Below are positions 12,906-47,921 of a stretch of DNA of 64,000 nucleotides, piece after piece. Made by a program: the position numbers and the translations under genes. Position 1 is the stretch's first letter. Every line of letters begins with the position of its first letter. The notes beneath the pieces are model-generated. The model worked only from the letters and a program-made list of their open reading frames with translations. It was not told the origin of the DNA and did no database searches. The DNA is from Pseudoprevotella muciniphila (lineage in GTDB: Bacteria > Bacteroidota > Bacteroidia > Bacteroidales > Bacteroidaceae): NCBI RefSeq assembly GCF_003265305.2, contig NZ_CP033459.1:1674001-1738000 (forward strand), given 5' to 3'.

Positions 12906-12921
12906 TGTTTCACGTGAAACA
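12906..12921. other. parS-like site 1 (ParB-binding palindrome)
   Basis: TGTTTCACGTGAAACA is a perfect 16-bp palindrome and matches the widely conserved bacterial parS consensus exactly. It lies seven bases after the mnmG stop codon. A second copy is 16 bp away. Confidence 0.85.
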
Positions 12922-12937
12922 AAAAAAACAAGCAAAC

Positions 12938-12953
12938 CGTTTCACGTGAAACA
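12938..12953. other. parS-like site 2 (ParB-binding palindrome)
   Basis: CGTTTCACGTGAAACA matches parS with one change in the outermost base. Together with site 1 it makes a closely spaced pair in the 67-bp mnmG-apt spacer. Confidence 0.8.
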
Positions 12954-12966
12954 AAATATTTATAAA

Positions 12967-13500: not shown

Positions 13501-13535
13501 CAGATATGTTATAAAATCGTGTTTGTTTGAATAAA

Positions 13536-15380
13536 ATGGATGCGGCGTTAGAGAGTAAATTAAAAAACATCGTAACAAACTTACCGGAGTCGCCAGGAAG
13601 TTATCAATACCTCGACGAAACCGGTAAAATTATCTATGTCGGCAAGGCGAAAAACCTTAAACGTCGTGTAAGTTCATATTTCAACAAAGACCAACAGTCA
13701 CAGAAGACAAAACTTCTTGTTTCAAAAATACGTGATATACATTATATCGTCGTTAAAACGGAAGAAGACGCGCTTCTGCTTGAAAACAACTTAATCAAGC
13801 AACACAAGCCCAAATATAACATTCTTCTCAAAGACGGCAAGACGTACCCGTCAATTGCTGTAACAAAGGAATTTCTGCCACGGATTTTCAAGACCAGGAA
13901 CCGCAATCTGAAACACGCTCTCCTATTCGGTCCTTACAGCCACGCGGGAACAATGTATGCTTTATTAGATTTATGCAAGGAACTTTATCAAGTACGCCCC
14001 TGCATGACACCCATAACCAAGGAGGGCGTTGAAACCGGAAAATACGACGTCTGTCTCCGCTATCATTTGCACAAGTGTAAAGCCCCATGCTGTGGCAGGC
14101 AAACCCATGAAGAATATGTCGCAAACATCGGACAATGTATTGAAATATTAAAAGGCAACACAGCAGAATTATCACGAAATCTTCGGAAGAAGATGGAGAC
14201 GCTAAGCGAAGAATTGCGATTTGAAGAAGCCGAAGAAATAAGAAAAAAATACGAAATCATCGAAAATTTCCGTTCAAAAAGTACGGTTATTTCGAGTGTT
14301 GAGCACAACATTGACGTTTTCAACATTGACAGCGATGAAAAGGCGGCTTATGTCAACTACCTGCACGTAGTAAAAGGTTCCATTACGCAAGCCTATACTT
14401 TAGAATGTAAAAAGAAACTAGACGAATCCAACGAAGAAATTATAGCATACGCTATTATTGAACTGCGTGAAAAATTTGCATCAAACTCTAAGGAAATCGT
14501 TGTGCCATTTAAGGTAGATATTCCCGAATCCATCGCTATTCAAACCATACCACAACGCGGCGACAAATACCATCTGCTTGAACTTTCTGCGCTCAATGTA
14601 AAACAGTACAAGTTTGACAAACTTAAACAGGCTGAAAAACTGAATCCTGAACAGAAATCAGTACGACTGATGAAGGAGATACAAAAAGACCTTGGATTGA
14701 GTTCCCTACCCTATCGCATCGAACTGTTCGACAATTCAAACATCAGCGGTGAGGACGCTGTGGCTGCGTGTGTTGTGTTTGAGAAACTGAAACCTGCAAA
14801 AAAAGAATATCGCACTTATAATATTAAAACAGTTACAGGTCCTGACGACTATGCATCAATGAAAGAAGTTGTCAGAAGAAGATACAGCCGTATATTTGAA
14901 GAACTATCTTCCCTACCCGACCTGATTATTGCGGATGGCGGCAAAGGGCAAATGGAAGTGATACGCGAGGTTACAGAGGATGAACTAAAACTTAACATCC
15001 CTATTGCCGGACTTGCAAAAGACAAACGTCACCGCACACGCGAACTTCTGTTCGGTTTTCCGCAGAAGAGTATAGGAGTAGACCCTTCTTCACAACTCTT
15101 TCGCACACTTACCCAAATGCAGGACGAAGTACACCGCTTTGCCATCAAGTTCCACAGAAACAAAAGAAGCAAAAGACAGGTCGCCAGCGAACTTGATAAA
15201 ATCGATGGAATCGGCAAAAAAACGAAAGAATTGCTGTTGAAGAAGTTCGGCAGCGTCAAAGTGATTAAAAACGCCGATGAAACCGCGCTTCAGAAGATTC
15301 TTGGACCTATAAAGGGTTCGAAGATATACCACAATTTACATAAAGGTGACATTTCTTCAGAGAAGATAAACGACATTTAA
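13536..15380 (+). CDS. uvrC: Excinuclease ABC subunit C
   Basis: A 614-residue nuclease subunit that makes both incisions in nucleotide excision repair. The GIY-YIG domain is at the N-terminus (GSYQYLDETGKIIYVGKAKNLKRRVSSYF region). A four-cysteine-type linker with CLRYHLHKCKAPC follows, then a UVR motif around residues 205-240, the RNase H-like C-terminal nuclease (FDNSNISGED, IADGGKGQ) and the terminal helix-hairpin-helix pair (KIDGIGKKTKELLLKKFGS region). ATG 13536 is used; an in-frame TTG nine bases upstream is the alternative. Its partner uvrA is also in this window at 29.6 kb. Confidence 0.95.
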   Translation: MDAALESKLKNIVTNLPESPGSYQYLDETGKIIYVGKAKNLKRRVSSYFNKDQQSQKTKLLVSKIRDIHYIVVKTEEDALLLENNLIKQHKPKYNILLKDGKTYPSIAVTKEFLPRIFKTRNRNLKHALLFGPYSHAGTMYALLDLCKELYQVRPCMTPITKEGVETGKYDVCLRYHLHKCKAPCCGRQTHEEYVANIGQCIEILKGNTAELSRNLRKKMETLSEELRFEEAEEIRKKYEIIENFRSKSTVISSVEHNIDVFNIDSDEKAAYVNYLHVVKGSITQAYTLECKKKLDESNEEIIAYAIIELREKFASNSKEIVVPFKVDIPESIAIQTIPQRGDKYHLLELSALNVKQYKFDKLKQAEKLNPEQKSVRLMKEIQKDLGLSSLPYRIELFDNSNISGEDAVAACVVFEKLKPAKKEYRTYNIKTVTGPDDYASMKEVVRRRYSRIFEELSSLPDLIIADGGKGQMEVIREVTEDELKLNIPIAGLAKDKRHRTRELLFGFPQKSIGVDPSSQLFRTLTQMQDEVHRFAIKFHRNKRSKRQVASELDKIDGIGKKTKELLLKKFGSVKVIKNADETALQKILGPIKGSKIYHNLHKGDISSEKINDI

Positions 15381-15391
15381 ACTTTTCTGCT

Positions 15392-15399
15392 TAATTTTG
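15392..15399 (+). promoter_or_regulatory. Bacteroidetes -7 element for dtd, giving an almost leaderless transcript
   Basis: TAATTTTG ends only seven bases before the dtd ATG at 15407. With the usual start-site distance for this element, the mRNA would begin at or within a few bases of the start codon. Confidence 0.5.
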
Positions 15400-15406
15400 T
15401 GTTACA

Positions 15407-15859
15407 ATGAGAGTAGTCATACAGCGTACACAATCCGCATCTGTTAAAATTGATGGAAAAACCAACGGTGAAATCGGCAAAGGTTTGCTGATTTTATTGG
15501 GCATCGAACCATCCGACACACAAGAAGATGTTTTATGGTTGGTAAAAAAAGCGGCAATGCTGCGCATATTCGATGACGATGAAGGCGTGATGAACAAATC
15601 CGTTATTGATATAAATGGCGATGTCATGGTGGTGAGTCAATTCACTCTCATGGCAAGTTATAAAAAAGGAAACCGACCATCGTATATTCGCGCAGCAGGT
15701 CCTGAAATCGCCATACCACTCTACGATTATTTCTGCAGCGAAATGGAAAAAACTATAGAAAAACCCGTTAAAACCGGTGTTTTTGGTGCGAATATGCAAG
15801 TTGAATTGCTAAACGATGGCCCTGTAACCATCTGCATGGATTCTAAACGAAAAGAATAG
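15407..15859 (+). CDS. dtd: D-aminoacyl-tRNA deacylase
   Basis: A 150-residue proofreading enzyme that removes D-amino acids (and glycine) mischarged to tRNA. The start MRVVIQRTQSASV is the family's conserved N-terminus. The catalytic SQFTL motif and the late NDGPVT motif, which carries the GP dipeptide of the chiral-proofreading site, are both present. It sits 26 bp after uvrC and seven bp before the MazG-like gene. Confidence 0.95.
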   Translation: MRVVIQRTQSASVKIDGKTNGEIGKGLLILLGIEPSDTQEDVLWLVKKAAMLRIFDDDEGVMNKSVIDINGDVMVVSQFTLMASYKKGNRPSYIRAAGPEIAIPLYDYFCSEMEKTIEKPVKTGVFGANMQVELLNDGPVTICMDSKRKE

Positions 15860-15866
15860 TAGTGGC

Positions 15867-16190
15867 ATGACAATAGAAGAAGCCCAGAAAAAAGTAGACC
15901 AATGGATAAAGACATTCGGTGTTCGCTATTTCAGCGAACTTACCAACATGGCATGCCTTACAGAAGAAGTGGGTGAATTGGCAAGGATTATTGCCAGAAA
16001 ATATGGCGACCAATCTTTTAAATCCGGTGAGAAAGAAGATTTGTCCGATGAAATGGCAGATATTTTATGGGTTCTGATTTGCCTTGCCAACCAAACTGGC
16101 GTTGATTTGACCGATGCTCTGAAAAAATCATTCGACAAAAAAACCAAAAGAGATGCTAAGCGACACCTAGACAATCCAAAACTGAAATAA
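15867..16190 (+). CDS. MazG-like nucleotide pyrophosphohydrolase
   Basis: A 107-residue single-domain all-alpha NTP pyrophosphohydrolase. The metal-binding pattern is visible as EEVGELARI near residues 32-40 and DEMADILWVLICLAN near 60-74 (ExxE followed by ExxD-type helices). Family members hydrolyse NTPs or modified dNTPs to NMP and pyrophosphate; the substrate here is unknown. It lies seven bp after dtd and in the same direction, so the two are probably co-transcribed. Confidence 0.85.
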   Translation: MTIEEAQKKVDQWIKTFGVRYFSELTNMACLTEEVGELARIIARKYGDQSFKSGEKEDLSDEMADILWVLICLANQTGVDLTDALKKSFDKKTKRDAKRHLDNPKLK

Positions 16191-16235
16191 ATAACATATT
16201 TTTTAGGCAACAAAAATAATAATCTTCAAATAATT

Positions 16236-17171
16236 ATGGCAAATAATTGTAACTGTGGACACGACCACAACCATGATCATCTTGGCTGCAAAGACAAATA
16301 CAGCCTGGCCTTTGAAAAGTTTGACCTCCACCGACACGATGAAATAGTTCATGAAGAGGTTACTAAACTCATTGAGAAAAACAAGGGAAAATACAACACA
16401 CCGGAAGTGATGCTCCATCTGCTTCAGGCTGTAGAATTGACTACGCTGAAAGTAACCGACAGCGAAGAAAGCGTTCTGGCTATGGTTGAGCGCGTCAACA
16501 AGTTTTATGATGAGCGCCCGGAACTTCCACCGATGGCCACCATCTGCGTATATCCCAAATTCGCAAAATTAGTCAGTCAAAGCCTCGAAGTAGAGGGTAC
16601 AGAAACTACGGTTGTAAGCGGTGGTTTTCCTTCTTCACAAACCTTTGCAGAAGTAAAAACCATCGAAACGTCGCTGGCTGTACACGATGGCGCAGAACAG
16701 GTAGATTGTGTCTTGAATGTTGGTGCTTTCCTTTCTGGCGATTATGAGACTGTTTCCGATGAAATCGCCGAAATTAAGGCAGCATGTAACGGTGTTCCAC
16801 TGAAAGTCATTCTCGAGACCGGAGCGCTTCAAACGGCAGAAAACATCAAACGTGCCAGTATTCTCGCTATCTATGCCGGTGCAGACTTTATCAAGACGAG
16901 TACTGGAAAAATAGAGCCAGCAGCCACTCCTGAAGCAGCACTGATGATGTGCGAAACCATCAAGGAATACTACAAACTAACAGGAACGAAAATTGGCTTT
17001 AAGGCTGCCGGCGGACTGAAAACCATTGACGATGCCCTTAACTACTACACAATAGTTATGGAACTTCTCGGAAAAGAGTGGATTGACGACAAACTATTTC
17101 GTCTCGGAACAAGCCGTTTGGCTAACAAAATTGTTTCTAAGGTGGTTGGTGAAGAAATTAACCCTTTCTAA
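16236..17171 (+). CDS. deoC: Deoxyribose-phosphate aldolase
   Basis: A 311-residue class I aldolase that splits 2-deoxyribose 5-phosphate into glyceraldehyde 3-phosphate and acetaldehyde. The Schiff-base lysine lies in DFIKTSTGK, and the second lysine in GFKAAGGLKT; LNVGAFLSGDYE is also typical. The protein is longer than compact DeoC enzymes because of about 50 extra N-terminal residues. These begin with a Cys/His-rich stretch (CNCGHDHNHDH) that looks able to bind a metal. It is the last gene of the mnmG group and ends at a strong terminator. Confidence 0.92.
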   Translation: MANNCNCGHDHNHDHLGCKDKYSLAFEKFDLHRHDEIVHEEVTKLIEKNKGKYNTPEVMLHLLQAVELTTLKVTDSEESVLAMVERVNKFYDERPELPPMATICVYPKFAKLVSQSLEVEGTETTVVSGGFPSSQTFAEVKTIETSLAVHDGAEQVDCVLNVGAFLSGDYETVSDEIAEIKAACNGVPLKVILETGALQTAENIKRASILAIYAGADFIKTSTGKIEPAATPEAALMMCETIKEYYKLTGTKIGFKAAGGLKTIDDALNYYTIVMELLGKEWIDDKLFRLGTSRLANKIVSKVVGEEINPF

Positions 17172-17191
17172 AGCAACTGTGATAAAGGTCC

Positions 17192-17232
17192 AAATAAAAG
17201 CGATGAATCTTACGGTTTCATCGCTTTTATTT
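17192..17232. terminator. Bidirectional intrinsic terminator between deoC and the polyprenyl synthetase gene
   Basis: A perfect 16-bp stem (17192-17207 with 17217-17232, core AAAAGCGATGAA) has A-rich and T-rich ends on opposite sides. It can serve both convergent genes. Confidence 0.9.
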
Positions 17233-17240
17233 TTATATTT

Positions 17241-18218
17241 TTACATCTCGCGTCCTACCACATAGTCTATATAGAGTTCCAAAGAACGACGCACGTCCGA
17301 ATCTTTGCAACGTATAAGATAGGATAGGGCGTTGTTTCTGTATTGCATCATTGTTTCTCGTGCAGAATCTATACCACCTTGTCCCTTGGTGAACTTAACG
17401 AGTCGCTCGATGTCGTCCTTGCTTGCTTTCATCGCCCTCACCTTTGCTGCCAAAGCGTGTATTTCTTCATCGTGCGTATTTTGGAGCGCTCGCAGAACCG
17501 GCAGAGAAAGTTTACCTTCACGCATGTCGTTGCCCGTTGGTTTTCCAATCTTTGCATCGTCAAAATAATCAAAGATATCGTCTCGTATTTGGAAACAAAT
17601 ACCCGCGGTTTCACCGAAAAGTTTTGCTTCTTCTATTGTTTGCTTATCTGCACCGACAGACAAAGCGCCAAGTTCGGCACAAACACCGAAGAGTGAAGCC
17701 GTTTTGTGCCTTATTATTTGCATATAAGTCTCCTCCGACAATTTCGGATTCAGATTACTCGGCAACTGAAGCAACTCTCCTTCAGCCAAATCGGACCCAA
17801 GCCTACCTATTGCAGATATGGGCTCCATACTATTCATCTTGGCAGCCATCTGAATAGTCTTTGACAAAATGTAATCACCTATCAGGATAGCAGGCTTGTT
17901 GTCAAACACCTTGTTTAATGATTTGTCGCCTCGTCGCTCCTGACTCTCATCTACAACATCGTCGTGAATGAGACTTGCAGTATGCAACATTTCGAGAACT
18001 ACAGCCGAGGTATATGTGTTATCGTTTACTTCGCCCAAGGCTTTTGCAGTAAGCAATACGAGTATGGGGCGCATCAACTTACCTTGCTTGGCACGCACAT
18101 GTTCAAGTGCAGAACCCAACAAACTGTTTTGGTGGGTAAGAGTAGCGTTGAACAATGCAGAGTAGTGCTGCAATTCTGCCTCGATGGGCTTACGGATCCG
18201 TTCTAAATTATTCATCAT
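17241..18218 (-). CDS. Polyprenyl diphosphate synthase (IspB/IdsA family)
   Basis: A 325-residue trans-prenyltransferase that extends allylic diphosphates with IPP. The first aspartate-rich motif is in LIHDDVVDES followed by RRGD, and the second is RDDIFDYFDD. Both have the DDxxD arrangement. Length and pattern fit long-chain synthases that make the quinone side chain, but chain length cannot be read with confidence. The second Met (one codon in) is an equally good start. It is divergent from polA and convergent with deoC. Confidence 0.9.
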   Translation of the reverse strand: MMNNLERIRKPIEAELQHYSALFNATLTHQNSLLGSALEHVRAKQGKLMRPILVLLTAKALGEVNDNTYTSAVVLEMLHTASLIHDDVVDESQERRGDKSLNKVFDNKPAILIGDYILSKTIQMAAKMNSMEPISAIGRLGSDLAEGELLQLPSNLNPKLSEETYMQIIRHKTASLFGVCAELGALSVGADKQTIEEAKLFGETAGICFQIRDDIFDYFDDAKIGKPTGNDMREGKLSLPVLRALQNTHDEEIHALAAKVRAMKASKDDIERLVKFTKGQGGIDSARETMMQYRNNALSYLIRCKDSDVRRSLELYIDYVVGREM

Positions 18219-18233
18219 TACCAGTAAATCATT

Positions 18234-18241
18234 GCAAAATT
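18234..18241 (-). promoter_or_regulatory. Bacteroidetes -7 element for the polyprenyl synthase gene
   Basis: The minus strand reads TAATTTTGC just upstream of the start (the TA lies at 18241-18242). The same 96-bp spacer must also hold the polA promoter; TTTG at 18251-18254 and TACATTTA at 18275-18282 is one weak candidate on the plus strand. Confidence 0.5.
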
Positions 18242-18314
18242 ACGACATATTTTGCAAGTCGATAAATTTTTGCGTACATTTACAACGAAAAAACCAAAAC
18301 AAAAGTAATACCAC

Positions 18315-21146
18315 ATGCAAAAACTTTGCCTTCTCGATGCATACGCTCTGATTTATCGCTCCTATTATGCGCTCATACGCTCACCGCGTATCAATTCAAA
18401 GGGAGAAAACACATCGGCAATATTCGGATTTGTCAACACGCTTGAAGATGTCCTAAAGAAAGAAAATCCCGATTTCATCGGCATTGCTTTCGACCCAAAG
18501 GGCAAGACTTTCCGTCATGAAACATATCCTGAGTACAAGGCTCAGCGTGAGAGCACTCCTGAAGACATAAGGTTTGCTGTGCCCATCATCAAAGACATCA
18601 TACGTGCCTACAACATTCCCATTCTTGAAGTTGAGCGTTATGAGGCAGATGACGTAATTGGTACTATTGCAAAAAAGGCGGCTTCATCGGGACTTTTTGT
18701 AGAAATGATAACCCCCGACAAGGACTATGGACAACTTGTGGAAGAAAACATCATTATGCTCCGGCCGGGACATGGTGCCAGTCCTATGGAAAGGATGGGG
18801 GAGAAAGAAGTTTGCGAAAAGTATGGTCTGCAAAAAACTTCTCAAATTATCGACTACCTCGGACTTATGGGTGATGCGTCAGACAATGTGCCCGGCTGTC
18901 CTGGGGTGGGAGCGAAGACTGCCGCTAAACTCATAGAGCAATTCGGCGACATAGGGCATTTGCTTGAGCGGACCGATGAACTTAAAGGCGCCTTGAAGAC
19001 AAAAGTAGAAGAAAACAAGGAAAAAATTCTCTTTTCCAAATTTCTTGTTACAATAAAAACCGATGTTCCCATCGAACTGAATCTGGATGAACTCAAAAGA
19101 AAGGAACCAGACAAGGAAAGTTTGAAAAAAATATTTGAACGTCTCGAATTTCGCTCGTTTATTTCAAAAATGTTCAAACCTGAAACTATTCAAGGAGAAC
19201 TATTTCAAAACCCAACTAAACCACAATACATTCAAGGCGATCTCTTTGGCAATCCCATAAATTCCGTTGCAAACGAAACTAATAGTTCTGAAGTTTTATT
19301 TGACGCTGGTAAGGAAATCGTGGTTGCAGAAAATCTCACAGATTTAAAAAACACAAAACATGAATATCATCTAATTGATAATGAGGAAGAATGCCTTCAA
19401 TTGTGTCAAAAATTATTGACAAATAAAATTTTGAGTTTTGACACAGAAACCACATCTACCGACGCTATCAGTGCACGGCTTGTTGGTTTCAGTTTTTCTG
19501 TGAGACCTTTTGAAGCATATTATATTTCTGTCCCTCAAGATTTTGAAGAAGCAAAAAAAATTGTTGGCATATTCAAGCCACTCTATGAATCGGAGGAGAT
19601 TTTGAAAGTAGGACAAAACATAAAATACGACATAATTGTACTGAAGCACTATGGCATAAACGTGCGCGGTCCACTTTTCGACACCATGCTGGCGCACTAT
19701 GTTGTTCAGCCAGAATTACGACACAACATGGACTACCTCGCTGAGATATATCTTCATTACCGCACCATACACATAGACGAACTCATTGGTCCTGCAGGCA
19801 AAAAGCAGAAAAACATGTCAGAACTCAAACCCGAGGAAGTATATGAATATGCCTGCGAGGATGCTGATGTTACTCTACGCCTGGTAGAACCTCTCAAGAA
19901 GGAGATGGATAGGGTAGGGGCGACAAAAATTTTCTACGAACTTGAAATGCCTCTTGTTCCTGTTCTTGCAAAAATGGAAATGGACGGAGTGGTGCTCGAC
20001 ACAAAAGCCATCAACGAAACAGGCAACCTCTTCCGCGAGAGAATGAAAAATCTCGAAAGGGACATTTACACGATGGCTGGCCACGAATTCCTGCTTACTT
20101 CGCCAAGACAAGTGGGCGAGGTTCTCTTTGGAGAAATGAAATTGTCGGAAAAAGCAAAGAAAACTAAAAGCGGGCAATACCAAACTTCTGAAGCCGTGCT
20201 GGAAGGATTGAAATCCAAACATCCCATTGTAGAAAAGATTCTTGCACACAGAGGGCTAAAAAAACTCATCAGCACATACATTGATGCACTCCCCAAACTC
20301 ATCAATCCGGAAACAGGACACCTGCACACATCTTTCAACCAAGCCGTTACTGCCACAGGGCGGTTGAGTTCATCGAACCCCAATCTGCAAAACATTCCTG
20401 TTCGCGGCGACGATGGAAAAGAAATCCGAAAGGCTTTCGTTCCGGAGTTTGGATGCATATTCTTCTCTGCCGACTACTCTCAGATAGAACTTCGCATTAT
20501 GGCACATCTGAGCGGCGATAAAAACATGACAGAGGCATTCTGTCACGGAGAAGATGTTCACGCAGCCACAGCCGCGAAAATATACAAAAAAGCTTTGTCA
20601 GAAATCTCTATAGACGAACGACGTAAAGCCAAGACAGCCAATTTCGGAATCATCTACGGCATCAGTGCCTTCGGTCTGGCAGAACGAATGGAAGTTTCAC
20701 GTACAGAAGCCCGCGAACTCATCGACAACTATTTCGCCACCTTCCCTGCCGTAAGTTCCTTCATTGAGACCTGTAAGGAAAAGGCGCGCAGACAAGGCTA
20801 TATAGAAACCGTATTTGGCCGGCGTCGCTATCTGCCCGACATCAACAGCGGAAATGCCGTGGTCAGGGGTTATGCAGAGCGAAACGCCGTGAATGCACCC
20901 ATACAAGGCACAGCAGCCGACATCATCAAACTCGCCATGATACGCATTGCTCAAAGGTTTGAAAAAGAGCACATCCGCTCAAAGATGATACTGCAAGTGC
21001 ACGATGAACTCAATTTCTCCGTTTACCCGGAAGAACTGGACCGAGTACGCAGCATTGTCATCGGAGAGATGGAGAATGCATACAAGATGACCGTTCCTCT
21101 CATTGCAGACTGTGGAGTCGGCCAAAACTGGCTTGAGGCACATTGA
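18315..21146 (+). CDS. polA: DNA polymerase I
   Basis: A 943-residue three-domain polymerase for Okazaki fragment processing and repair. The 5'-3' exonuclease domain spans about residues 1-300 (LLDAYALIYRSYYAL, YEADDVIGT, PDKDYGQL, LMGDASDNVPG). The 3'-5' exonuclease domain is at about 340-530, and its catalytic DxE is kept in SFDTETTSTDA, so proofreading is probably active. The polymerase domain follows, with motif A DYSQIELR, motif B RRKAKTANFGIIYG and motif C QVHDELNF. The length is normal. It is divergent from the polyprenyl synthase gene, and the next gene starts 27 bp after its stop. Confidence 0.97.
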   Translation: MQKLCLLDAYALIYRSYYALIRSPRINSKGENTSAIFGFVNTLEDVLKKENPDFIGIAFDPKGKTFRHETYPEYKAQRESTPEDIRFAVPIIKDIIRAYNIPILEVERYEADDVIGTIAKKAASSGLFVEMITPDKDYGQLVEENIIMLRPGHGASPMERMGEKEVCEKYGLQKTSQIIDYLGLMGDASDNVPGCPGVGAKTAAKLIEQFGDIGHLLERTDELKGALKTKVEENKEKILFSKFLVTIKTDVPIELNLDELKRKEPDKESLKKIFERLEFRSFISKMFKPETIQGELFQNPTKPQYIQGDLFGNPINSVANETNSSEVLFDAGKEIVVAENLTDLKNTKHEYHLIDNEEECLQLCQKLLTNKILSFDTETTSTDAISARLVGFSFSVRPFEAYYISVPQDFEEAKKIVGIFKPLYESEEILKVGQNIKYDIIVLKHYGINVRGPLFDTMLAHYVVQPELRHNMDYLAEIYLHYRTIHIDELIGPAGKKQKNMSELKPEEVYEYACEDADVTLRLVEPLKKEMDRVGATKIFYELEMPLVPVLAKMEMDGVVLDTKAINETGNLFRERMKNLERDIYTMAGHEFLLTSPRQVGEVLFGEMKLSEKAKKTKSGQYQTSEAVLEGLKSKHPIVEKILAHRGLKKLISTYIDALPKLINPETGHLHTSFNQAVTATGRLSSSNPNLQNIPVRGDDGKEIRKAFVPEFGCIFFSADYSQIELRIMAHLSGDKNMTEAFCHGEDVHAATAAKIYKKALSEISIDERRKAKTANFGIIYGISAFGLAERMEVSRTEARELIDNYFATFPAVSSFIETCKEKARRQGYIETVFGRRRYLPDINSGNAVVRGYAERNAVNAPIQGTAADIIKLAMIRIAQRFEKEHIRSKMILQVHDELNFSVYPEELDRVRSIVIGEMENAYKMTVPLIADCGVGQNWLEAH

Positions 21147-39366: not shown

Positions 39367-42300
39367 ATGAAATTTAACGAAGCAACACGTGTTCAGATGC
39401 CTGCTATGGTACACCTAACACGGTTAGGATATAAATATTTCGGGAAAATTCACGAAGAGACCAAAGGTATAGTCTATGATGGCGATACCAATATTCTGTT
39501 GGAGGTGTTCAAAAAGAAGTTTGAGGATTTGAACCCCGGACACGAAGGAGAGTTTCTACAACTATTACGCGACATTCGTAGAGAGTTGAATGACGATGAC
39601 CTCGGTAGAGGTTTTTATAAGCGTCTTAAGTCTGTTTCTCCCGTCCGCTTGATAGATTTTGAGAATCCTCTGAACAACGAATTCCATTTCACGGCAGAGT
39701 TTACGTGCAAGAATGGGCAAGATGAATTTCGACCTGATATTACCTTGTTTGTGAATGGTCTTCCACTTTGCTTTGTTGAAGTGAAAAAACCAAATAATCA
39801 TGGGGGGATGGTTGCAGAAAGCACCCGTATGAACAAGGAGCGTTTTCCTAACAAGAAATTCCGCCGTTTTATCAACATAACCCAACTGATGATATTTTCC
39901 AATAACATGGAATACGATGCATTGGGTGGTATAGTGCCGATACAAGGGGCTTTTTATTGTACAGGAGCAAGGAAATTTGCGCCATTCAACTGTTTCAGGG
40001 AAGAAAACCCAAGCAGCATGAAAGTGGCACCCTACAATAAAGATTTTCCTTATCTCAATATAGATAGAAATACCGAGAAGAAAATTTTGAGCGACTATAA
40101 TTGTCAAGTAATTCATACCAGTCCGGAATACCAGACAAATCTCGGAGAGAATACCCCCACAAACAGAATACTCACATCTATGTGCAGCCCTGAACGTTTG
40201 CTTTTTATTCTTCAATATGGCATTGCATACGTACGGATGGAGCGCGAGGTCGATGGTAAGATAGAATCTACAGACCAAAAGCACATAATGCGTTATCAGC
40301 AGATGTTCGCGGCATTAGCTATCAGAAAAAAACTATCTGAAGGCGTAAAATCAGGTGTGGTATGGCATACGCAAGGAAGTGGTAAAACAGCTCTTTCATA
40401 CTATCTTACCTATATTCTTAACGATTTCTATGCAAAACAAAATAAAGTAGCCAAGTTTTACTTCATTGTTGACCGTCTTGACCTTCTGGAACAAGCCAAG
40501 CAAGAATTTGAAGCACGTGGTCTAATTGTGGCGACAGCAAACACAAGAGCGGAACTGATGGCACAATTCAGGCAGAATCAGGCACAGCAAGGAGCAAGCG
40601 GACAGGCAGAAATCACGGTAGTCAATATCCAACGTTTTGCAGAGGACAAAGAAAAAGTCAACATAACCGATTATGCAACTAATTTACAGCGCATCTTTAT
40701 TCTCGATGAGGCACATCGTGGATATAAACCTGGAGGTTGTTTTCTTGCTAATTTGTTTGATGCAGACAAAGAATCTATAAAGATTGCTTTGACAGGTACT
40801 CCGCTACTGAGAGAAGAGCGAGCTTCCTGCAAGGTTTTTGGCGATTATCTTCATACATACTACTACGACCGTTCAATAGCAGACGGTTATACTCTGAAAA
40901 TTATCCGTGAAGACATCGAAACATCATACAGAGAAAAACTTACTCAGGTTTATGATAAGCTTGACACCCTCGTTGAAAAAAAAGAGATTACAAAGGGTGA
41001 TATAATTCAGCATGACAACTATGTCAACGAATTGCTTCGCTATATCATCAATGACCTTATAAATTTCAGGACAGTCCAAGGAGACAACACTTTGGGAGGA
41101 ATGATTATTTGCGAAACAAGCAGACAGGCAGAAAAGTTGTTTGCAAACTTTGATGATATCCAAAAAGAAATAGACCCGAAGCTCAACCTGAAAGCAGGGT
41201 TGATACTTCACGACCATGAGGACAAAGAGGTAAGAAAGCAGATAGTCAAGGATTTTAAGAAGAACATGACCATTGATGTTTTGATTGTATTCAATATGCT
41301 TCTTACGGGTTTTGACGCTCCGCGCCTGAAACGGCTTTATTTTGGACGTAAGCTAAAAGACCACAACCTGCTTCAAGCAATTACGCGCGTGAATCGTCCT
41401 TATAAAGATATGCGTTATGGTTTCTTGATTGACTTTGCGGACATAAAGCGCAACTTTGACGAGACAAATGAGGCATACTTGCAAGAGTTGAACCGATTCA
41501 ATGATGTGAAAGAAACGGGAGAAGGCAACAACACCGACACCTTTGTTCAAGTCATAGAGAACAAAGATGAAATTGTAAGTCAAATGAAGGAAATACGACA
41601 GGTGCTGTTTGAATATTCTTATGATAATGCTGAAGAATTCTCTACAGAAATATCTACAGAGGAAGACAAAGCCGTTCTGCTTGACTTGAAGAAAGCACTT
41701 ACATCTGCCAAGAATATGTCAAATATTGTCCGCACTTTCGGCGATGACGATATGAAGGAAAAGTTTGCAAAAGTGGAAATATCCAAACTGCCCGAACTAC
41801 TTTCTGAGGTGCAGCACCGTATTGACATTATCAATCAAAAAGAGGCTTTCAGTGTTAGTGATGAAACAAAAGTGCTAATCAATGAAGCCATGATGGATAT
41901 TGAGTTCAACTTCAATAAAATAGGCACAGAGGAACTGAGACTAATAGCCGGTGGTATTGAGTTGAAAGAAAAGTGGCAGCGCACAATATCTTCTTTTACT
42001 AACAACATTGATCAAGAAGACCCTGAATTTGTAACTTTGCGCGAAGCATTCATGGAAAGATTCAAAGAACATGGCTTTGTAATTGATACCATAGCCAAGT
42101 TCAACGAAGAAACAAAAGCGTTAGATGACATCATACAAAGACTTCAAGACCTCCAGAAGCGCAACAACGCCCTTTTGAAGAAATACAATGGAGACTCTAA
42201 GTTTGCCCGTGTTCACAAACGCATTCGTGAAGTTAACAAGGAGCGTGAAGAAAAGCATCAGAAACCAATGTTCTCATTCTTGGACGAAGAGATTATGGTT

Positions 42301-42522
42301 ATCCTAAAAATCATAAAAGAGGATATAGACTCTAAGGTTTATGACAGGAATGACATTTTAAAGAAAGATGCTTACTTCAATAAAACAGTGCTCTCCCTTA
42401 TAAATGGATGCCTGTATCAATTTCCACAGATTCAACCCGAAATGGAGGATTACAAGTTTATCCAACAGAGAATATCACAACAATACATCAATCAATATAA
42501 TGCCACTTACGGCAACGCATAA
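39367..42522 (+). CDS. hsdR: Type I restriction enzyme, R subunit
   Basis: A 1051-residue restriction and DNA-translocase subunit. The nuclease core is Asp124 ... Glu138-Val-Lys140 (RPDITLFVNG, FVEVKKP). The helicase part has Walker A QGSGKT near residues 336-341, DEAH at 447-450, and later helicase motifs including TGFDAPRLK. The C-terminal part is helical and should dock on the HsdM/HsdS core. ATG 39367 is preferred to a TTG nine bases upstream. It cuts DNA lacking the methylation pattern set by HsdS, so a change in HsdS would alter both restriction and methylation together. hsdM follows six bp later. Confidence 0.95.
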   Translation: MKFNEATRVQMPAMVHLTRLGYKYFGKIHEETKGIVYDGDTNILLEVFKKKFEDLNPGHEGEFLQLLRDIRRELNDDDLGRGFYKRLKSVSPVRLIDFENPLNNEFHFTAEFTCKNGQDEFRPDITLFVNGLPLCFVEVKKPNNHGGMVAESTRMNKERFPNKKFRRFINITQLMIFSNNMEYDALGGIVPIQGAFYCTGARKFAPFNCFREENPSSMKVAPYNKDFPYLNIDRNTEKKILSDYNCQVIHTSPEYQTNLGENTPTNRILTSMCSPERLLFILQYGIAYVRMEREVDGKIESTDQKHIMRYQQMFAALAIRKKLSEGVKSGVVWHTQGSGKTALSYYLTYILNDFYAKQNKVAKFYFIVDRLDLLEQAKQEFEARGLIVATANTRAELMAQFRQNQAQQGASGQAEITVVNIQRFAEDKEKVNITDYATNLQRIFILDEAHRGYKPGGCFLANLFDADKESIKIALTGTPLLREERASCKVFGDYLHTYYYDRSIADGYTLKIIREDIETSYREKLTQVYDKLDTLVEKKEITKGDIIQHDNYVNELLRYIINDLINFRTVQGDNTLGGMIICETSRQAEKLFANFDDIQKEIDPKLNLKAGLILHDHEDKEVRKQIVKDFKKNMTIDVLIVFNMLLTGFDAPRLKRLYFGRKLKDHNLLQAITRVNRPYKDMRYGFLIDFADIKRNFDETNEAYLQELNRFNDVKETGEGNNTDTFVQVIENKDEIVSQMKEIRQVLFEYSYDNAEEFSTEISTEEDKAVLLDLKKALTSAKNMSNIVRTFGDDDMKEKFAKVEISKLPELLSEVQHRIDIINQKEAFSVSDETKVLINEAMMDIEFNFNKIGTEELRLIAGGIELKEKWQRTISSFTNNIDQEDPEFVTLREAFMERFKEHGFVIDTIAKFNEETKALDDIIQRLQDLQKRNNALLKKYNGDSKFARVHKRIREVNKEREEKHQKPMFSFLDEEIMVILKIIKEDIDSKVYDRNDILKKDAYFNKTVLSLINGCLYQFPQIQPEMEDYKFIQQRISQQYINQYNATYGNA

Positions 42523-42528: not shown

Positions 42529-44166
42529 ATGACAATTAAGGAAAAGACTCTCCGTCTTATTGACCAACTGAAGTCAACCTGTGCTACTTATGGCATGGGA
42601 AACGATGGAAACGAATATAAGATTATCACGCAGGTTTTTCTGTATAAGTTCTTAAATGATAAGTTCGGCTACGAGATTAAGAATGCCCGAAGCGAGATTG
42701 CAAAGAAGATAAAGGCAGCTGAAAAGTGGGAAATTGCATACACGGAACTGAGTGAGAATGAAAGACTGTTGTTGCAGAGTGCTCTTTCGCCGGATGTACC
42801 AATGTTGGAACCTTACCACTTGATTTCAAACCTTTGGAATCAACAGGGCAGGGGCGACTTCGATACCATTTTCGACAATACGATGACCGACATTGCAGAG
42901 AAGAATGCCGATATCTTCTCTACTCAGACAACGGAGAACACCAAGATTCCCCTCTTCGAAACGTTGACAAATTTTGTTACGGATACGGCACAACGCGCAC
43001 CTTTTGCACGTGCCTTGGTTGACAAATTGGTGAATTTCTCTTTTGAGGAAGCTTTTGCAGAACACTATGACTTCTTTGCATCTATCTTTGAATATCTTAT
43101 CAAGGACTACAACACTGCCGGTGGTGGCAAATATGCAGAGTATTACACACCCCACGCTATCGCAACCATCATGGCACGACTGTTGGTTGGCGACAATGCC
43201 GACCTTCACAGCATGGAATGTTATGACCCGTCTGCCGGTACGGGAACTTTGCTTATGGCTCTTGGTCATCAGATTGGCGAAGACCGTTGTACCATTTTCT
43301 CACAGGACATTTCCCAGCGTTCAAATAAAATGCTGAAATTGAATTTGCTTTTGAACGGGTTGGTGTCTTCGCTTGATAATGCCATTCAAGGCGACACTCT
43401 CGTTGCTCCTTTTCACAAAAGTGATGATGGCCAGCACCTCCGCACATTCGACTTTGTGGTAAGCAATCCACCTTTCAAGATGGATTTTTCCGACACACGC
43501 GAAAAAATTGCAGCGATGCCCGCACGGTTCTGGGCAGGCGTTCCCAAGGTGCCTGCCAAGAAGAAAGAAGCGATGGCAATTTATACTTGTTTCATTCAGC
43601 ACGTCATTAACTCGCTGAACGAAACAGGCAAAGGGGCAATCGTCATTCCTACAGGCTTCATTGCGGCTAAGTCGGGCATTGAGAAGAAAATCCTGCAGCA
43701 CATCGTTAACGAGAAAATCGTTTACGGTTGTATATCTATGCCTTCTAACGTGTTTGCCAACACAGGAACCAATGTTTCTGTTTTGTTCTTTGACAATTCA
43801 CGCACAGCTGAGAAAGTAACCCTCATCGATGCAAGTAAACTTGGCGAAGAATATAAAGAGGGCAACTTGAAGAAGCGCCGTTTGCGCGATGAAGAAATAG
43901 ACAAAATAGTTTCCACTTTCCGCGAACAAAAAGCTGAGGACGATTTCTCAGTAGTCGTTGGCTACGACGAAATAAAAGAAAGGGGCTATTCCTTGTCGGC
44001 TGGGCAATACTTCGACATCAAGATTGAGTATGTCGATATTACCGAAGAAGAGTTCAATAGTCGCATTGCTGACTATGAGGCAACACTCAAACAACAATTT
44101 GAGGAAAGCCACAAATTGGAAGAAGATATAATCCAGCAACTTCAACAATTACAATTTAATGGTTGA
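42529..44166 (+). CDS. hsdM: Type I restriction-modification system, DNA methyltransferase M subunit
   Basis: A 545-residue N6-adenine methyltransferase subunit. The N-terminal helical domain starts with LRLIDQLKSTCATYG. SAM-binding motif I is DPSAGTGTLL (from Asp233) and the catalytic motif IV is NPPF at 313-316. GGKYAEYYTPHAIATIM is another HsdM signature. It acts only as a complex with HsdS, which supplies sequence specificity. The gene overlaps the start of hsdS by eight bp, indicating coupled translation. Confidence 0.96.
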   Translation: MTIKEKTLRLIDQLKSTCATYGMGNDGNEYKIITQVFLYKFLNDKFGYEIKNARSEIAKKIKAAEKWEIAYTELSENERLLLQSALSPDVPMLEPYHLISNLWNQQGRGDFDTIFDNTMTDIAEKNADIFSTQTTENTKIPLFETLTNFVTDTAQRAPFARALVDKLVNFSFEEAFAEHYDFFASIFEYLIKDYNTAGGGKYAEYYTPHAIATIMARLLVGDNADLHSMECYDPSAGTGTLLMALGHQIGEDRCTIFSQDISQRSNKMLKLNLLLNGLVSSLDNAIQGDTLVAPFHKSDDGQHLRTFDFVVSNPPFKMDFSDTREKIAAMPARFWAGVPKVPAKKKEAMAIYTCFIQHVINSLNETGKGAIVIPTGFIAAKSGIEKKILQHIVNEKIVYGCISMPSNVFANTGTNVSVLFFDNSRTAEKVTLIDASKLGEEYKEGNLKKRRLRDEEIDKIVSTFREQKAEDDFSVVVGYDEIKERGYSLSAGQYFDIKIEYVDITEEEFNSRIADYEATLKQQFEESHKLEEDIIQQLQQLQFNG

Positions 44167-45364
44167 TATGGAGTTAAGGAAATATAAATTAAAAGATATT
44201 GCAGAAATTGTCAATGGTGCGACACCATCTTCATCTAATGCCGATTATTATGATGGAGATGTGATTTGGTTTACACCAAAAGACCTTTCTGATCAGAAGA
44301 CAAAATATATTGAAAAAGGAGAAAGAAATCTGACACTAAAAGGGTATGAAAGTTGTTCTGCAAAAATGCTGCCTGCATATAGTATTCTTATGTCATCACG
44401 TGCTCCCATTGGCTTATTATCTATCAATGTTAATCCATGTTGTACAAACCAAGGGTTTAAAAGCTTGATACTTAATAAAGAAATCTGTGATGTTGATTAT
44501 CTTTATTACTATCTTAAATACCACATGCCTGAGGTTGAAAGCTTAGGTTCAGGAACAACATTTAAAGAAGTCTCTAAAGTTGCTCTTGAATCCTTGGAGG
44601 TAAATTTACCTTCTCTACAATTCCAGTCAAAAATAGCTAAGATATTATCTCTTCTTGATGACAAGATTTCTCTTAATCGGGAGATAAATCGGAATTTAGA
44701 AGCACTCGCCAAGCAGCTTTACGACTACTGGTTTGTGCAGTTTGATTTCCCAAATGAGGAAGGCAAGCCGTACAAATCGAGTGGTGGAAAAATGGTATGG
44801 AATGAGAAACTAAAACGTGATATTCCTAAAGGATGGGAGAATACAACATTAGGTGATTTCTGTGAAATGTATCAGCCACAAACTATTGGTACAAACGAGT
44901 TGGTTTCGAATGGACTTTATCGTGTTTATGGAGCGAACGGTATTGTAGGAAGATACGATAAATATAATCACGAAGAAAGTGAAATTGCGATGGCATGCAG
45001 AGGCAATAGTTGCGGAGTCCTAAACAGAACTATGCCTTATTCTTGGATAACGGGAAATGCAATGGTCATTAGAATGAGAAACAATGATTGTTGTAATGAA
45101 TTTATAAAACAAGCCCTTCCATATATGAATATCGCTGGTGCAATAACAGGATCTGGTCAACCACAATTAACAAGGGAAAATCTGAGTGCGGTTTCTTGTA
45201 TAAAGCCCATGAAGACTATTCTACAGGCTTTTTCAAATAAAGTCACTCCAATCGTTTCCTTTCAATTACAATTAACACTGGAGAACGAAGAATTGATTAA
45301 GCAGCGCGACGAACTCCTACCGCTCTTGATGAACGGTCAGGTGTCGCTAAATTCCGATTTATAG
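44159..45364 (+). CDS. hsdS: Type I specificity subunit HsdS in the expressed position (two target-recognition domains)
   Basis: A 401-residue complete specificity subunit. The first target-recognition domain covers about 1-155, the central conserved helices about 160-215 (KIAKILSLLDDKISLNREI, then INRNLEALAKQLYDYW), the second recognition domain about 225-370, and the C-terminal helices end in LLPLLMNGQVSLNSDL. The 16-bp site A falls at INRNL and site B at LNSDL, so the second half is a cassette between inverted sites. ATG 44159 overlaps hsdM; a second ATG at 44168 is possible. The recognition domains are more AT-rich and less conserved than the helices, as usual. Confidence 0.92.
   Translation: MVDMELRKYKLKDIAEIVNGATPSSSNADYYDGDVIWFTPKDLSDQKTKYIEKGERNLTLKGYESCSAKMLPAYSILMSSRAPIGLLSINVNPCCTNQGFKSLILNKEICDVDYLYYYLKYHMPEVESLGSGTTFKEVSKVALESLEVNLPSLQFQSKIAKILSLLDDKISLNREINRNLEALAKQLYDYWFVQFDFPNEEGKPYKSSGGKMVWNEKLKRDIPKGWENTTLGDFCEMYQPQTIGTNELVSNGLYRVYGANGIVGRYDKYNHEESEIAMACRGNSCGVLNRTMPYSWITGNAMVIRMRNNDCCNEFIKQALPYMNIAGAITGSGQPQLTRENLSAVSCIKPMKTILQAFSNKVTPIVSFQLQLTLENEELIKQRDELLPLLMNGQVSLNSDL
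44684..44699 (+). repeat. Inversion site A, centre of hsdS
   Basis: ATAAATCGGAATTTAG, read in hsdS as the codons for INRNL. It has short inverted arms (TAAAT and ATTTA) around an asymmetric CGGA core. It matches sites B and D exactly in the opposite orientation and site C with one mismatch in the same orientation. Confidence 0.8.
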
Positions 45365-45899
45365 CAATGTTTAAGGTTATCTTTTCATCTAAATGACGAA
45401 GTAGTTTTCCTATCCGTTTTTGTTCTTCTATTGCAGGAATAAAAACCTTACATTGTTTTATTCTATCAGGGGATGTATGACGGATTTTTGTTTGCTGTGC
45501 ACCTGATGCTAATTGTTTTTTAACGAAATTAGAAGATAATAGATAAAAACAAAAGTCCTTATCTAAAAGAGACTCATTTGGTGTTACTAACGCGACATCT
45601 TGGCTTTGAATATATTTTCCACTTTCTGGAATAAATGCAGTACTTCCTATTAAACCTGGAGTTTGCTCTGTTAAAGGAGTTATTATATCATTATGCTTTA
45701 ATATATATTTATCCTTTACCTCTCCAATATAGTATAGGTTTTCCTTCGAAGTATTATGCTTAAATCTATTATTTTGGTAGTCAAAATTGCCTCCAGTTAA
45801 ACGTATGAACTTACCTTCGGAAGAATAAAATTCTCCCGAAAGGCTTGTGCCACGAGTAACCTCTGCAAGCTGACCTATTGTATATTCTTTTAATTTCAT
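45297..45899 (-). CDS. Reversed half HsdS (single target-recognition domain)
   Basis: A 200-residue frame on the minus strand. Residues 1 to about 150 form a target-recognition domain different from either domain of the expressed hsdS (MKLKEYTIGQLAEVTRGTSL). The conserved central helix follows (IEEQKRIGKLLRHLDEKITL), ending INRNL at site B. After the site the frame runs antisense into the end of the expressed hsdS, adding a 16-residue tail (ATPDRSSRAVGVRRAA). It keeps the same frame across the site as the full hsdS. It has its own -7 element, so it is probably transcribed. It may be a silent cassette or a working half-subunit. Confidence 0.8.
   Translation of the reverse strand: MKLKEYTIGQLAEVTRGTSLSGEFYSSEGKFIRLTGGNFDYQNNRFKHNTSKENLYYIGEVKDKYILKHNDIITPLTEQTPGLIGSTAFIPESGKYIQSQDVALVTPNESLLDKDFCFYLLSSNFVKKQLASGAQQTKIRHTSPDRIKQCKVFIPAIEEQKRIGKLLRHLDEKITLNIAINRNLATPDRSSRAVGVRRAA
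45347..45362 (-). repeat. Inversion site B, shared end of hsdS and reversed half hsdS
   Basis: CTAAATTCCGATTTAT on the plus strand, the exact reverse complement of site A. In the plus frame it encodes LNSDL at the end of hsdS; in the minus frame it encodes INRNL of the reversed half gene. Confidence 0.8.
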
Positions 45900-45918
45900 T
45901 TAGTCCGATTTCTGCTTG

Positions 45919-45926
45919 CAAAAGTA
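45919..45926 (-). promoter_or_regulatory. Bacteroidetes -7 element for the reversed half hsdS
   Basis: TACTTTTG followed by C on the minus strand, 19 bp upstream of the half-gene ATG. It lies between the half gene and the recombinase, inside the B-C segment, so it would move with the half gene on inversion. Confidence 0.55.
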
Positions 45927-45952
45927 GCAAAATCGAACGAGATAAGGAATTT

Positions 45953-46942
45953 TTATCCTATATACTTGCGATGAGCAATCTTTACATTCGCTTGATTTAC
46001 CATTGCGTATTGAAGTGTGGTATCAATCTTTACATGCCCCAATAGACGTTGTACTTGCTCAATCGGCATCCCTTTATCTATGGCAAATGTGGCGAGTGTG
46101 CGTCTAAATTTATGAGGGTGAATTTTCCTGATTCTTGCTTGTTTTCCAAGCCTCTTTAGACGCTTTTCAACTCCGCTTATTGTTAGCCGATTATAAGGTG
46201 CATGTAGCGATACGAATAATGCTTTATTGTTATCTTTCCTCTTATTCAGATAATCTTCCAAATGTATTTTTGTTCGTGCATTGAAATATACAATTCGCTC
46301 TTTGTTCCCTTTTCCAAAAACTACACACTGTCGTTCTTTGAAGTCAATGTCTGTTCGGTTGAGTAACACCAATTCCCCGACGCGAACGCCAGTAGAAACA
46401 AGGAAATCAACGAGTGCCAAGTCGCGTTGCTCTATACAGCTGTCGCGAAGCCGCTCCAAATCCTCATCGCTCAAAGTTTCTTTTACCACTTGGTTTGTTT
46501 TTATCTTACGTATGCGCCTCACTGGGCTTTTTCCGATATAATCCTCGTCTTCCAACCACGCAAAGAAAGTTGAAAGAATACGCCTCATATTGTCTATCGT
46601 TACTTTACTGACCTGTTGCCTTTGTTCATAAGATGATAAGTAGTTCCTTATACAATCCGTATCTACTTGAGCTATGCCACATTTTAAGGTAGCAAGGAAA
46701 GAGACAATGGTATTGGCGTAATAGTTTAGCGTTTTACAAGAACATCCCTCAATCTGTTTGGCAGACAAAAAAATATCAAGTAATTGTTCATTTTCGTTTT
46801 CCGTCTGTGTACTGTTTTTTAGAGGTTGCACTTCTACTTGGTTTAATGTTTGTCGCAGGGTTTCTTTTAATAGTTTGATTTGTCGGCAGTCAAGGCTTCG
46901 CTGCATCGCACAAACCACTGTGTTAATGATGTTTTCTTTCAT
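45953..46942 (-). CDS. Tyrosine recombinase, probable hsdS invertase
   Basis: A 329-residue phage-integrase-family recombinase. The N-terminal SAM-like DNA-binding domain spans about 55-145 (CKTLNYYANTIVSFLATL). The catalytic domain shows STGVRVGELVLLN (Arg), HKFRRTLATFA (HxxR), RLLGHVKI (His) and TTLQYAMV (nucleophilic Tyr). It lies between the halves of the split hsdS, the usual place for enzymes that invert type I specificity genes. ATG 46942 is preferred; an upstream TTG at 46987 would overlap site C. A 12-bp inverted repeat (46945-46956 with 46983-46994) lies at its start and takes in part of site C. Confidence 0.88.
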   Translation of the reverse strand: MKENIINTVVCAMQRSLDCRQIKLLKETLRQTLNQVEVQPLKNSTQTENENEQLLDIFLSAKQIEGCSCKTLNYYANTIVSFLATLKCGIAQVDTDCIRNYLSSYEQRQQVSKVTIDNMRRILSTFFAWLEDEDYIGKSPVRRIRKIKTNQVVKETLSDEDLERLRDSCIEQRDLALVDFLVSTGVRVGELVLLNRTDIDFKERQCVVFGKGNKERIVYFNARTKIHLEDYLNKRKDNNKALFVSLHAPYNRLTISGVEKRLKRLGKQARIRKIHPHKFRRTLATFAIDKGMPIEQVQRLLGHVKIDTTLQYAMVNQANVKIAHRKYIG

Positions 46943-46983
46943 TGTTCCGATTTGTTTGGTTATTTCTATAATATAAGACGGCA

Positions 46984-46999
46984 ACAAATCGGAATTTAG
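46984..46999 (+). repeat. Inversion site C, start of the second hsdS 3' half
   Basis: ACAAATCGGAATTTAG differs from site A at one base. The homology with site A continues downstream for about 100 bp through the conserved central region of HsdS. Confidence 0.75.
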
Positions 47000-47679
47000 A
47001 AGCCCTTGCTAAGCAACTCTATGACTATTGGTTTGTTCAGTTTGATTTTCCTAACGAGGAGGGTAAACCGTACAAATCAAGTGGTGGCGTTATGGTGTAT
47101 AATGAGAACTTAAAAAGACATATTCCACAAGACTGGAACGATGGCATATTTGCTGATATTGCCAATATAACAATGGGACAATCTCCAGATGGTTCAAGTT
47201 ACAATGAAACTGGAGAAGGCGAAATCTTCTATCAGGGTAGCACAGATTTTAGAATCCGTTTCCCTTCTGTGCGTATGTACACAACATCCCCAACAAGATT
47301 TGCAAAGCAAGGTGATATTCTGATGAGTGTAAGAGCACCTGTCGGTGCAGTAAATATTGCAAATACGGACTGCTGTATTGGACGTGGCTTATCCGCTATC
47401 AATTCAAAGATTGGGTCAATAACCTATATATATTATGTAGTTCATTATCTCAAAGTCAGATTTGACAACCTCAATTCTGCTGGAACGACCTTTGGCTCAA
47501 TAACGAAAGATGATTTGTACAACCTCCCTGTGGTGATTCCTCCTTCTGAGATAATAGAATTATTTGAAAAGGTCTGCAAACCAATATTTGATAAGCAGAT
47601 GGAAATAGGATTTGAAATAGAATCGCTGACTAAGCAGCGCGACGAACTATTGCCGCTCTTGATGAACGGCCAGGTATCG

Positions 47680-47695
47680 CTAAATTCCGATTTAT
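47680..47695 (-). repeat. Inversion site D, end of the second hsdS 3' half
   Basis: CTAAATTCCGATTTAT, identical to site B and the exact reverse complement of site A. About 60 bp before it (encoding KQRDELLPLLMNGQVS) are nearly identical to the sequence before site B. Confidence 0.8.
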
Positions 47696-47822
47696 TGACA
47701 TTCTTTTATTTATTTCCCATATACTCCAAACCGCGTACCGTTTCTTCATAATTCTGCAACGCCGTGAACCACGTCACGGGAGTTTTATCCTTCACAGAGC
47801 GAACTTTAGAAAAGGGTTTGCC

Positions 47823-47921
47823 GTCAAGATGTTACAAAAAATCGCGCCAGTTGGTGTCAAAATGTTACAAAAAACCATGCCGGTTGGTGTCAAATTGTTA
47901 CAAAAAAGTTCAGATCGGTTG
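47823..47921. repeat. Three tandem 33-bp repeats
   Basis: Units begin at 47823, 47856 and 47889. Each reads roughly GTCAARATGTTACAAAAAA, then a variable base pair group and GCCRGTTGGT; the third copy is the most degraded at its end. On the minus strand the period is eleven codons (FCNILTPTGMV-like) within an open frame at 47792-48001 of 69 residues, which I do not call as a gene. The repeats begin about 130 bp after site D, in the otherwise empty 47752-48160 stretch. Confidence 0.65.

Follow-up and report, generated by a model that had tools for sequence, protein, structure and literature searches.

We analysed a 64-kb stretch (the window) of the single-contig, 2.92-Mb genome of Pseudoprevotella muciniphila, in which a type I restriction-modification locus carries four copies of a short sequence, denoted sites A, B, C and D, in and around its specificity (hsdS) genes. 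This locus is very likely a switch that gives one HsdS with one of four specificities via a tyrosine recombinase acting at A, B, C and D. An initial annotation, made from the window's letters, had proposed a shufflon-like type I specificity locus, and this proposal is well supported by relatives, where the sites are conserved, junctions are recombined and two configurations occur in one contig. A change of type I specificity alters both the methylation pattern of the cell and the restriction of incoming DNA.

Sites, genes and reading frames of the window locus

The sites, genes and reading frames are observed directly in the window. The four site copies lie where they had been annotated, at 44684..44699 (+, A), 45347..45362 (-, B), 46984..46999 (+, C) and 47680..47695 (-, D); A, B and D match exactly, and the sole mismatch is in the left arm of site C (beginning ACAAATCGG). 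They had been described as a 16-bp site: the four copies are real, but the common element is a 14-bp core, TAAAT-CGGA-ATTTA (TAAATCGGAATTTA), with arms TAAAT and ATTTA, and the first and last bases of the 16-mer differ among copies in relatives. With up to three mismatches allowed, the 64 kb hold five matches, against a mean of 0.76 and a maximum of 3 in 100 shuffles. A chance origin of the sites was rejected, since none of these 100 window shuffles reached five matches and the shuffle control in relatives, given below, points the same way.

The complete hsdS gene (44159..45364, +, 401 aa; Methylase_S E 6.1e-44, in two stretches; product against the S subunit of PDB 1yf2, E 2.4e-52) joins a first target recognition domain, TRD1a, to a second, TRD2a. 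Site A forms its centre and encodes INRNL, and a site in the opposite orientation encodes LNSDL at its C-terminus, as had been claimed. TRD2a (44700..45346, +) is a shared second-half cassette between inverted sites A and B and is faced by both first halves, the other being TRD1b (45297..45899, -; 200 aa in the present state, Methylase_S E 1.2e-14). Site B has a double role, as the 3' end of the plus-strand hsdS and the centre of the minus-strand half hsdS. A first half and the recombinase had both been placed between B and C; this is right for the recombinase, but the half gene already extends through B. The recombinase is XerA-like (45953..46942, -, 329 aa; Phage_integrase E 2.7e-33; NCBIfam NF040815 244 bits, cut-off 220) and aligns with the XerC-like chain 4a8e and with XerA 5hxy. 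Beyond it lies an orphan second-half cassette, TRD2b (46984..47751, +; Methylase_S E 1.1e-09), which shares direct repeats of 172 nt (77%) and 69 nt (91%) with the ends of TRD2a. Both second-half cassettes are thus flanked by inverted sites (A-B and C-D) as annotated, with one arm mismatch at site C.

In the proposed mechanism, the recombinase, presumably the switching enzyme, would exchange strands within the 14-bp core at all four sites; it would recognise the palindromic TAAAT/ATTTA arms, its putative binding site, and require identical central bases. Through such exchanges, the two second-half cassettes would change places between two slots and turn round within them. TRD1a, which follows hsdM, would face slot A-B from its left side and TRD1b, which follows the recombinase, from its right side, while slot C-D would serve as a store. 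A cassette in A-B, either way round, would complete exactly one first half, giving four specificities, 1a2a at present and otherwise 1b2a, 1a2b or 1b2b. We infer that switching takes place in the window strain and that methylation changes with configuration.

HsdS frames were preserved through in-silico inversions, and the single inversions A-B, B-C, C-D and A-D are all allowed by site orientation, as the initial annotation held. After inversion of A-B, TRD2a no longer completes TRD1a (401 aa) but instead completes TRD1b on the minus strand (408 aa). We then built 16 arrangements from two cassettes in two slots, each in two orientations, with the recombinase module in two orientations, scoring a recombinase-fused hsdS as complete. 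In the present module orientation, exactly one complete HsdS was found in 8 of 8 cassette arrangements, which together gave all four combinations (1a2a 401, 1b2a 408, 1a2b 412 and 1b2b 419 aa). Exactly one HsdS is complete because the orientation of the recombinase makes both first halves share one cassette, and they face this cassette because the recombinase points against hsdM. The earlier interpretation in terms of four single inversions had overlooked the shared cassette, and hence this outcome. When the module was flipped, zero complete HsdS were obtained in 2 arrangements, one in 4 and two in 2.

The B-C inversion had been expected to create a second complete HsdS. It does yield a complete 1b2b, but the first hsdS (1a2a) loses its stop codon and is fused in frame to the recombinase (744 aa). 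No stop lies between the recombinase start and site C (46942-46987), and some arrangements fuse HsdS (744-755 aa) or a cassette (frames of 595-606 aa) in frame to the recombinase; open frames through the recombinase of 605, 596 and 555 aa also occur in genomes G347, G926 and G1002. A conserved HsdS-recombinase fusion was considered and rejected: the fusion is held to be incidental because the distance from site to start differs modulo 3 between relatives.

The neighbouring subunit genes lie upstream on the same strand: hsdM (42529..44166, +; Pfam N6_Mtase E 1.2e-62) and hsdR (39370..42522, +; Pfam HSDR_N E 2.3e-28 and SWI2_SNF2; NCBIfam hsdR 277 bits, slightly below the cut-off of 284.55). A 33-nt unit is repeated three times in tandem at 47818-47916, between the TRD2b cassette and the gene that follows; the copies are 64-100% alike.

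Searched through the 2.92-Mb genome with up to two mismatches, the 16-mer occurs in eight places, the window's four and four in another cluster, and its reversed pattern, used as a control, in three. The second cluster (G000:C1:2246128-2249402; L009:7129-10403) contains AAGATAAATYGGAATTTA four times, in alternating orientation (+ - + -), and this sequence has the arms of the hsdS sites. Its genes are small (GNAT, C_GCAxxG_C_C, Nitro_FeMo-Co, aminoglycoside-adenylyltransferase-like and hexapeptide acetyltransferase), and a recombinase was not found among the six open reading frames scanned. A 107-nt stretch between copies 2 and 3 forms, as a single strand, a long hairpin (z -3.6) that recalls an integron attC site, and the matching stretch at the other end has no such fold (z 0.95). 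Elsewhere in this genome, another member of the recombinase family (58%; G000:C1:2870982-2871962, locus L145) adjoins two open reading frames of 186 and 167 aa that resemble single TRDs by eye; a tblastn search of the surrounding 18 kb for HsdM, HsdR and HsdS of the window gave no match.

Conserved sites and rearranged junctions in relatives

Conservation of the sites and rearrangement of their junctions were observed in relatives, taken as the best 80 of at least 556 recombinase matches in genome contigs (59-68% identical) and making 81 loci with the window. By record titles these belong to Bacteroidota, Bacillota and a few other groups, and the genomes of L020 (Hoylesella nanceiensis) and L027 (Bacteroides clarus) fall in the window's family grouping. 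Sites with the same core occur in the order (+-)recombinase(+-) in 53 of the 81 loci; among the 28 without this order, 20 end near the recombinase, including L033, L064 and L080, in which no site was found, and L036 has an extra site pair. In shuffled sequence (two-base blocks, a rough control), four sites of equal spacer were found in 0 of 1620 cases. The four sites of each locus had been selected for an equal spacer, and exact arms with any spacer were therefore also counted throughout the interval that the outer sites enclose in each of the 53 loci: every one of the 205 occurrences carries its own locus's spacer (201 by script, and four of L069 by eye, as the script labelled this locus in the other orientation; its sites are identical). 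Sixteen different spacers occur among the 53 loci. Arms that are fixed, around a centre that is free between loci and equal within each locus, have the appearance of a crossover region.

The repeats might instead be conserved HsdS coding sequence and no recombination sites at all, as INxNLE is a recurring central motif in these HsdS. We consider this very improbable: the C-terminal copy is inverted, from locus to locus its peptide changes together with the central one (INRNL goes with LNSDL, INDNL with LNYHL), and spacers are equal within loci and different between them. Coding conservation alone was rejected as the source of the repeats on these grounds.

The flanks of 272 site instances were compared. 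Thirty site pairs, drawn from 24 locus pairs, have at least 85% identity over the 60 nt to the left of the site and less than 60% to the right, and the cores are identical in 29 of these 30 junction pairs (the one difference being L052/L074). In loci L073 and L079, whose recombinases are 99.9% alike, one cassette of 878 bp lies in opposite orientations (99.8% identity), the inversion ending exactly at its sites, and the other slot is occupied by a different cassette. Among close pairs with a cassette in different places, L148/L149 requires at least two exchanges, its cassettes being both swapped and inverted.

Two configurations were found in a single contig, that of G095, which has the window's layout and a recombinase 59% identical to the window's. 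The ends of this contig overlap by ~20.4 kb (4363000-4376354 against 7051-20430, 99.7%), up to its last base. Both copies keep the flanks (99.8 and 99.99%) and the recombinase module (100%) collinear; they differ in the two cassettes, which have traded slots and are each inverted (99.7%; 96.6% with gaps), and the alignments break at the 14-bp core. Most simply, this is a single circular chromosome assembled without trimming of its ends from a culture containing two configurations; the alternative is a real tandem duplication. Under either reading, recombination took place at the cores.

Several observations weigh against a working switch in the window. Its own locus showed no alternative configuration in its one assembly, no single A-B inversion was found among close pairs of window-type loci, and the mismatched arm might make site C weak. 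For Bacteroidota, moreover, the switch presupposes that the TRD1b genes are expressed. A second set of 86 further loci was fetched, of which 8 had recombinase DNA identical to earlier ones, leaving 78; the four-site layout is present in 23 of these and its order is missing in 55, of which 10 are cut by contig ends. Its frequency falls with recombinase identity, from 15/23 at 60% or more to 8/25 at 58-60% and 0/30 below 58%, and more distant recombinases occupy other layouts.

The mismatch in site C and the single observed configuration would also suit a fossil, that is, an inherited site arrangement at a locus no longer recombining in this strain. We regard this as unlikely, since the recombinase is open over 329 aa and scores above its NCBIfam cut-off, the HsdS halves are in frame with all four sites, and arm mismatches are also present in other four-site loci, e.g. 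L034, L068 and L074-L076.

Recombinases of this kind are not universal in the window's family, order or phylum: at E 1e-60 a match was found in 36 of 399, 8 of 393 and 4 of 395 genomes, respectively, each count including the window's own genome. Two other arrangements were noted among the loci. L153, L164 and L168 have three same-core sites, all direct, behind an hsdM that abuts the recombinase, perhaps an excision system or a cassette array. L036 has six sites and a third cassette that reads in from its site like the second, with an equally long first half; this may be a duplication or an assembly artefact.

Two layouts and the single-HsdS pattern

Among the 53 loci with four sites in the first set, hsdM was located in 50, and its direction defines two layouts. 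In layout I (17/50) it is directed opposite to the recombinase, as in the window, and in layout II (33/50) it is co-directional with it, as in Streptococcus suis 10581 (L060). By record titles, 15 of the 17 layout I loci (window counted) and none of the 33 layout II loci belong to Bacteroidota, the remaining layout I loci being L030 (Ruminococcus) and L040 (Spirochaetia). The recombinases of L024 and L030 are 94% alike, yet their layouts differ.

In layout I, site positions P3 and P4, which belong to the same slot, are each preceded by a long open first half of at least 156 codons in 17 of 17 first-set loci, and first halves are likewise open into both positions in 7 of 7 second-set loci of this layout. 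The two first halves therefore draw on a single cassette, and the geometry leaves one HsdS complete. In layout II there is one first half per slot, at P1 and P3, of at least 158 codons in 32 of 33 loci (22 codons at P3 in L063), and exactly one HsdS is complete when the two cassettes are antiparallel, the centre end of a cassette being taken as the end with the long open frame.

Cassettes are antiparallel in 30 of the 32 clear layout II loci of the first set (L084 was unclear and dropped), the exceptions being L046, with no complete HsdS, and L069, with two. Before the second set was examined, we fixed the prediction of at least 85% antiparallel in layout II and no bias in layout I. The second set gave 12 of 12 clear loci antiparallel in layout II (L210, L212 and L213 dropped as unclear) and 1 of 6 in layout I (L148 dropped as unclear; L206 lacks hsdM). 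Pooled, the counts are 42/44 in layout II against 10/23 in layout I (Fisher p = 3e-6), or 40/42 in layout II without the near-duplicates L024 and L070 (p = 5e-6); these p-values are only a guide because the loci are related to one another, and each assembly displays one state, probably the commonest. Thus, in layout I one HsdS is forced by geometry and cassette orientation is irrelevant, whereas in layout II the pattern is obeyed though not forced. The complete half in layout I is TRD1a in 12 of 23 loci and TRD1b in 11 of 23, which suggests that both states are useful.

Two explanations of the layout II pattern are given equal weight, paired exchange through chemistry and through selection. 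In the first, which we hold as a tentative possibility, cassette changes are concerted, two exchanges occurring together in a four-site complex so that the parity of the two cassettes is kept. The antiparallel counts, including the held-out 12/12, are consistent with this, and L148/L149 and L073/L079 retain parity, as does L048/L065. In S. suis, moreover, PMC10790761 reports one-HsdS forms only, in assemblies, long reads and polymerase chain reaction (PCR). However, selection against cells with zero or two HsdS would look alike, L046 and L069 violate the pattern, and parity differs between L046 and L051 (recombinases 94.7% alike) and, in layout I, between L019 and L021 on one side and L027 on the other (89-91% alike).

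The second explanation, to which we lend the same limited credence, is that single inversions of A-B, C-D, B-C and A-D are independent and random, and that selection alone clears bad states. It accords with the differing parity of L046/L051 and with the occurrence of both parities in the window-type layout (the 10/23 above), where no cassette state is bad. Against it, the S. suis PCR and long reads, as excerpted in PMC10790761, contain neither zero- or two-HsdS forms nor an inverted recombinase, and the forms expected from single inversions were not detected. Among pairs with recombinases at least 88% alike, parity is the same in 21/22 in layout II, a figure that follows from the antiparallel pattern itself, and in 4/6 in layout I. 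A common rule for four-site switches across phyla, with one recogniser kept by geometry and free orientation in the layout found mostly in Bacteroidota and by paired four-site exchanges that keep cassettes antiparallel in the layout found mostly in Bacillota, is put forward as a rather doubtful generalisation. Two layouts with the same outcome, through geometry in one and coordination or selection in the other, offer a testable case of keeping a single recogniser while shuffling.

Comparison with known systems

Inverted copies of one short site also flank segments that become alternative C-termini in the R64 plasmid shufflon with Rci, unlike the window in that it concerns a pilus tip protein and uses another recombinase and other sites. 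In the 25 of 43 window inverted pairs that were listed, complementarity above 88% is found only at sites A to D. The SpnIII/cod locus of Streptococcus pneumoniae (PsrA/CreX) resembles the window in that hsdS halves are exchanged by inversion with a locus-borne tyrosine recombinase, and its excerpted descriptions give three different inverted repeats (15, 85, and 298 or 333 bp) with a common 10-bp core, ATTATGGGAA (PMC4948785, PMC6620402, PMC7096588); the window has one site type, with the core TAAATCGGAATTTA and not ATTATGGGAA. The B. fragilis hsdS shufflon BB, likewise in Bacteroidota, combines hsdS, a tyrosine integrase and several specificities, and has four inverted-repeat sets, of which the one printed in the excerpt is 38 bp and lacks the window core (PMC3090145). 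At the tvr/SpnIV locus, TRD cassettes are reassorted by a tyrosine recombinase, as proposed for the window, through direct repeats and circular intermediates (PMC6265443), whereas each window cassette lies between inverted sites, though A/C and B/D are mutually direct. The window locus was therefore assigned to none of the pneumococcal, B. fragilis and tvr types, as the sites differ.

Type I phase variation has been reported in Prevotella intermedia, Porphyromonas gingivalis and B. fragilis, and the window site was not found in the consulted text of these reports (PMC5608340, PMC3090145, PMC5690328). An excerpt of a gut inverton survey ties subunit S genes to an inverton group (PMC11892184). 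Six 14-mer site strings were found, among open PMC papers, only in PMC10790761 and PMC5198162, and no description of the shared-cassette layout, of the cross-phylum spread with locus-specific centres or of the parity contrast was found in our searches of the open PMC literature, preprints excluded.

Use of one site at both the centre and the end of HsdS, which the initial annotation had called unusual, is common in close relatives and already published for SsuCC20p of S. suis (excerpts of PMC10790761 and PMC5198162, the latter an earlier report of four variants). As in the window, one locus holds hsdR, hsdM, hsdS halves and a tyrosine recombinase; the recombinase and a further first half lie between two TRDs, and inverted copies of a single 14-bp site with TAAAT-N4-ATTTA arms, published as TAAATCATCATTTA / TAAATGATGATTTA, bracket each TRD. 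According to the same excerpts of PMC10790761, shuffling requires the recombinase gene, and an hsdS located behind this gene is both transcribed and active in methylation. The window recombinase is 63% identical over 329 aa to that of L060, a locus bearing the published site, and is of the same family. The central bases differ, CGGA in the window and CATC in SsuCC20p. In L060 the recombinase and the second first half run in the direction of hsdM, every first half is paired with a cassette of its own and hsdR comes after, whereas in the window the recombinase opposes hsdM, a single cassette is common to both first halves and hsdR lies ahead of hsdM.

This design, described by its authors as restricted to streptococci (PMC10790761, in the part consulted), thus occurs in many Bacteroidota and Clostridia, and its site rule of fixed arms and a locus-specific centre serves to find and read such switches in genomes. 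The kind of switch is already known from S. suis; the window differs from it by the shared-cassette arrangement.

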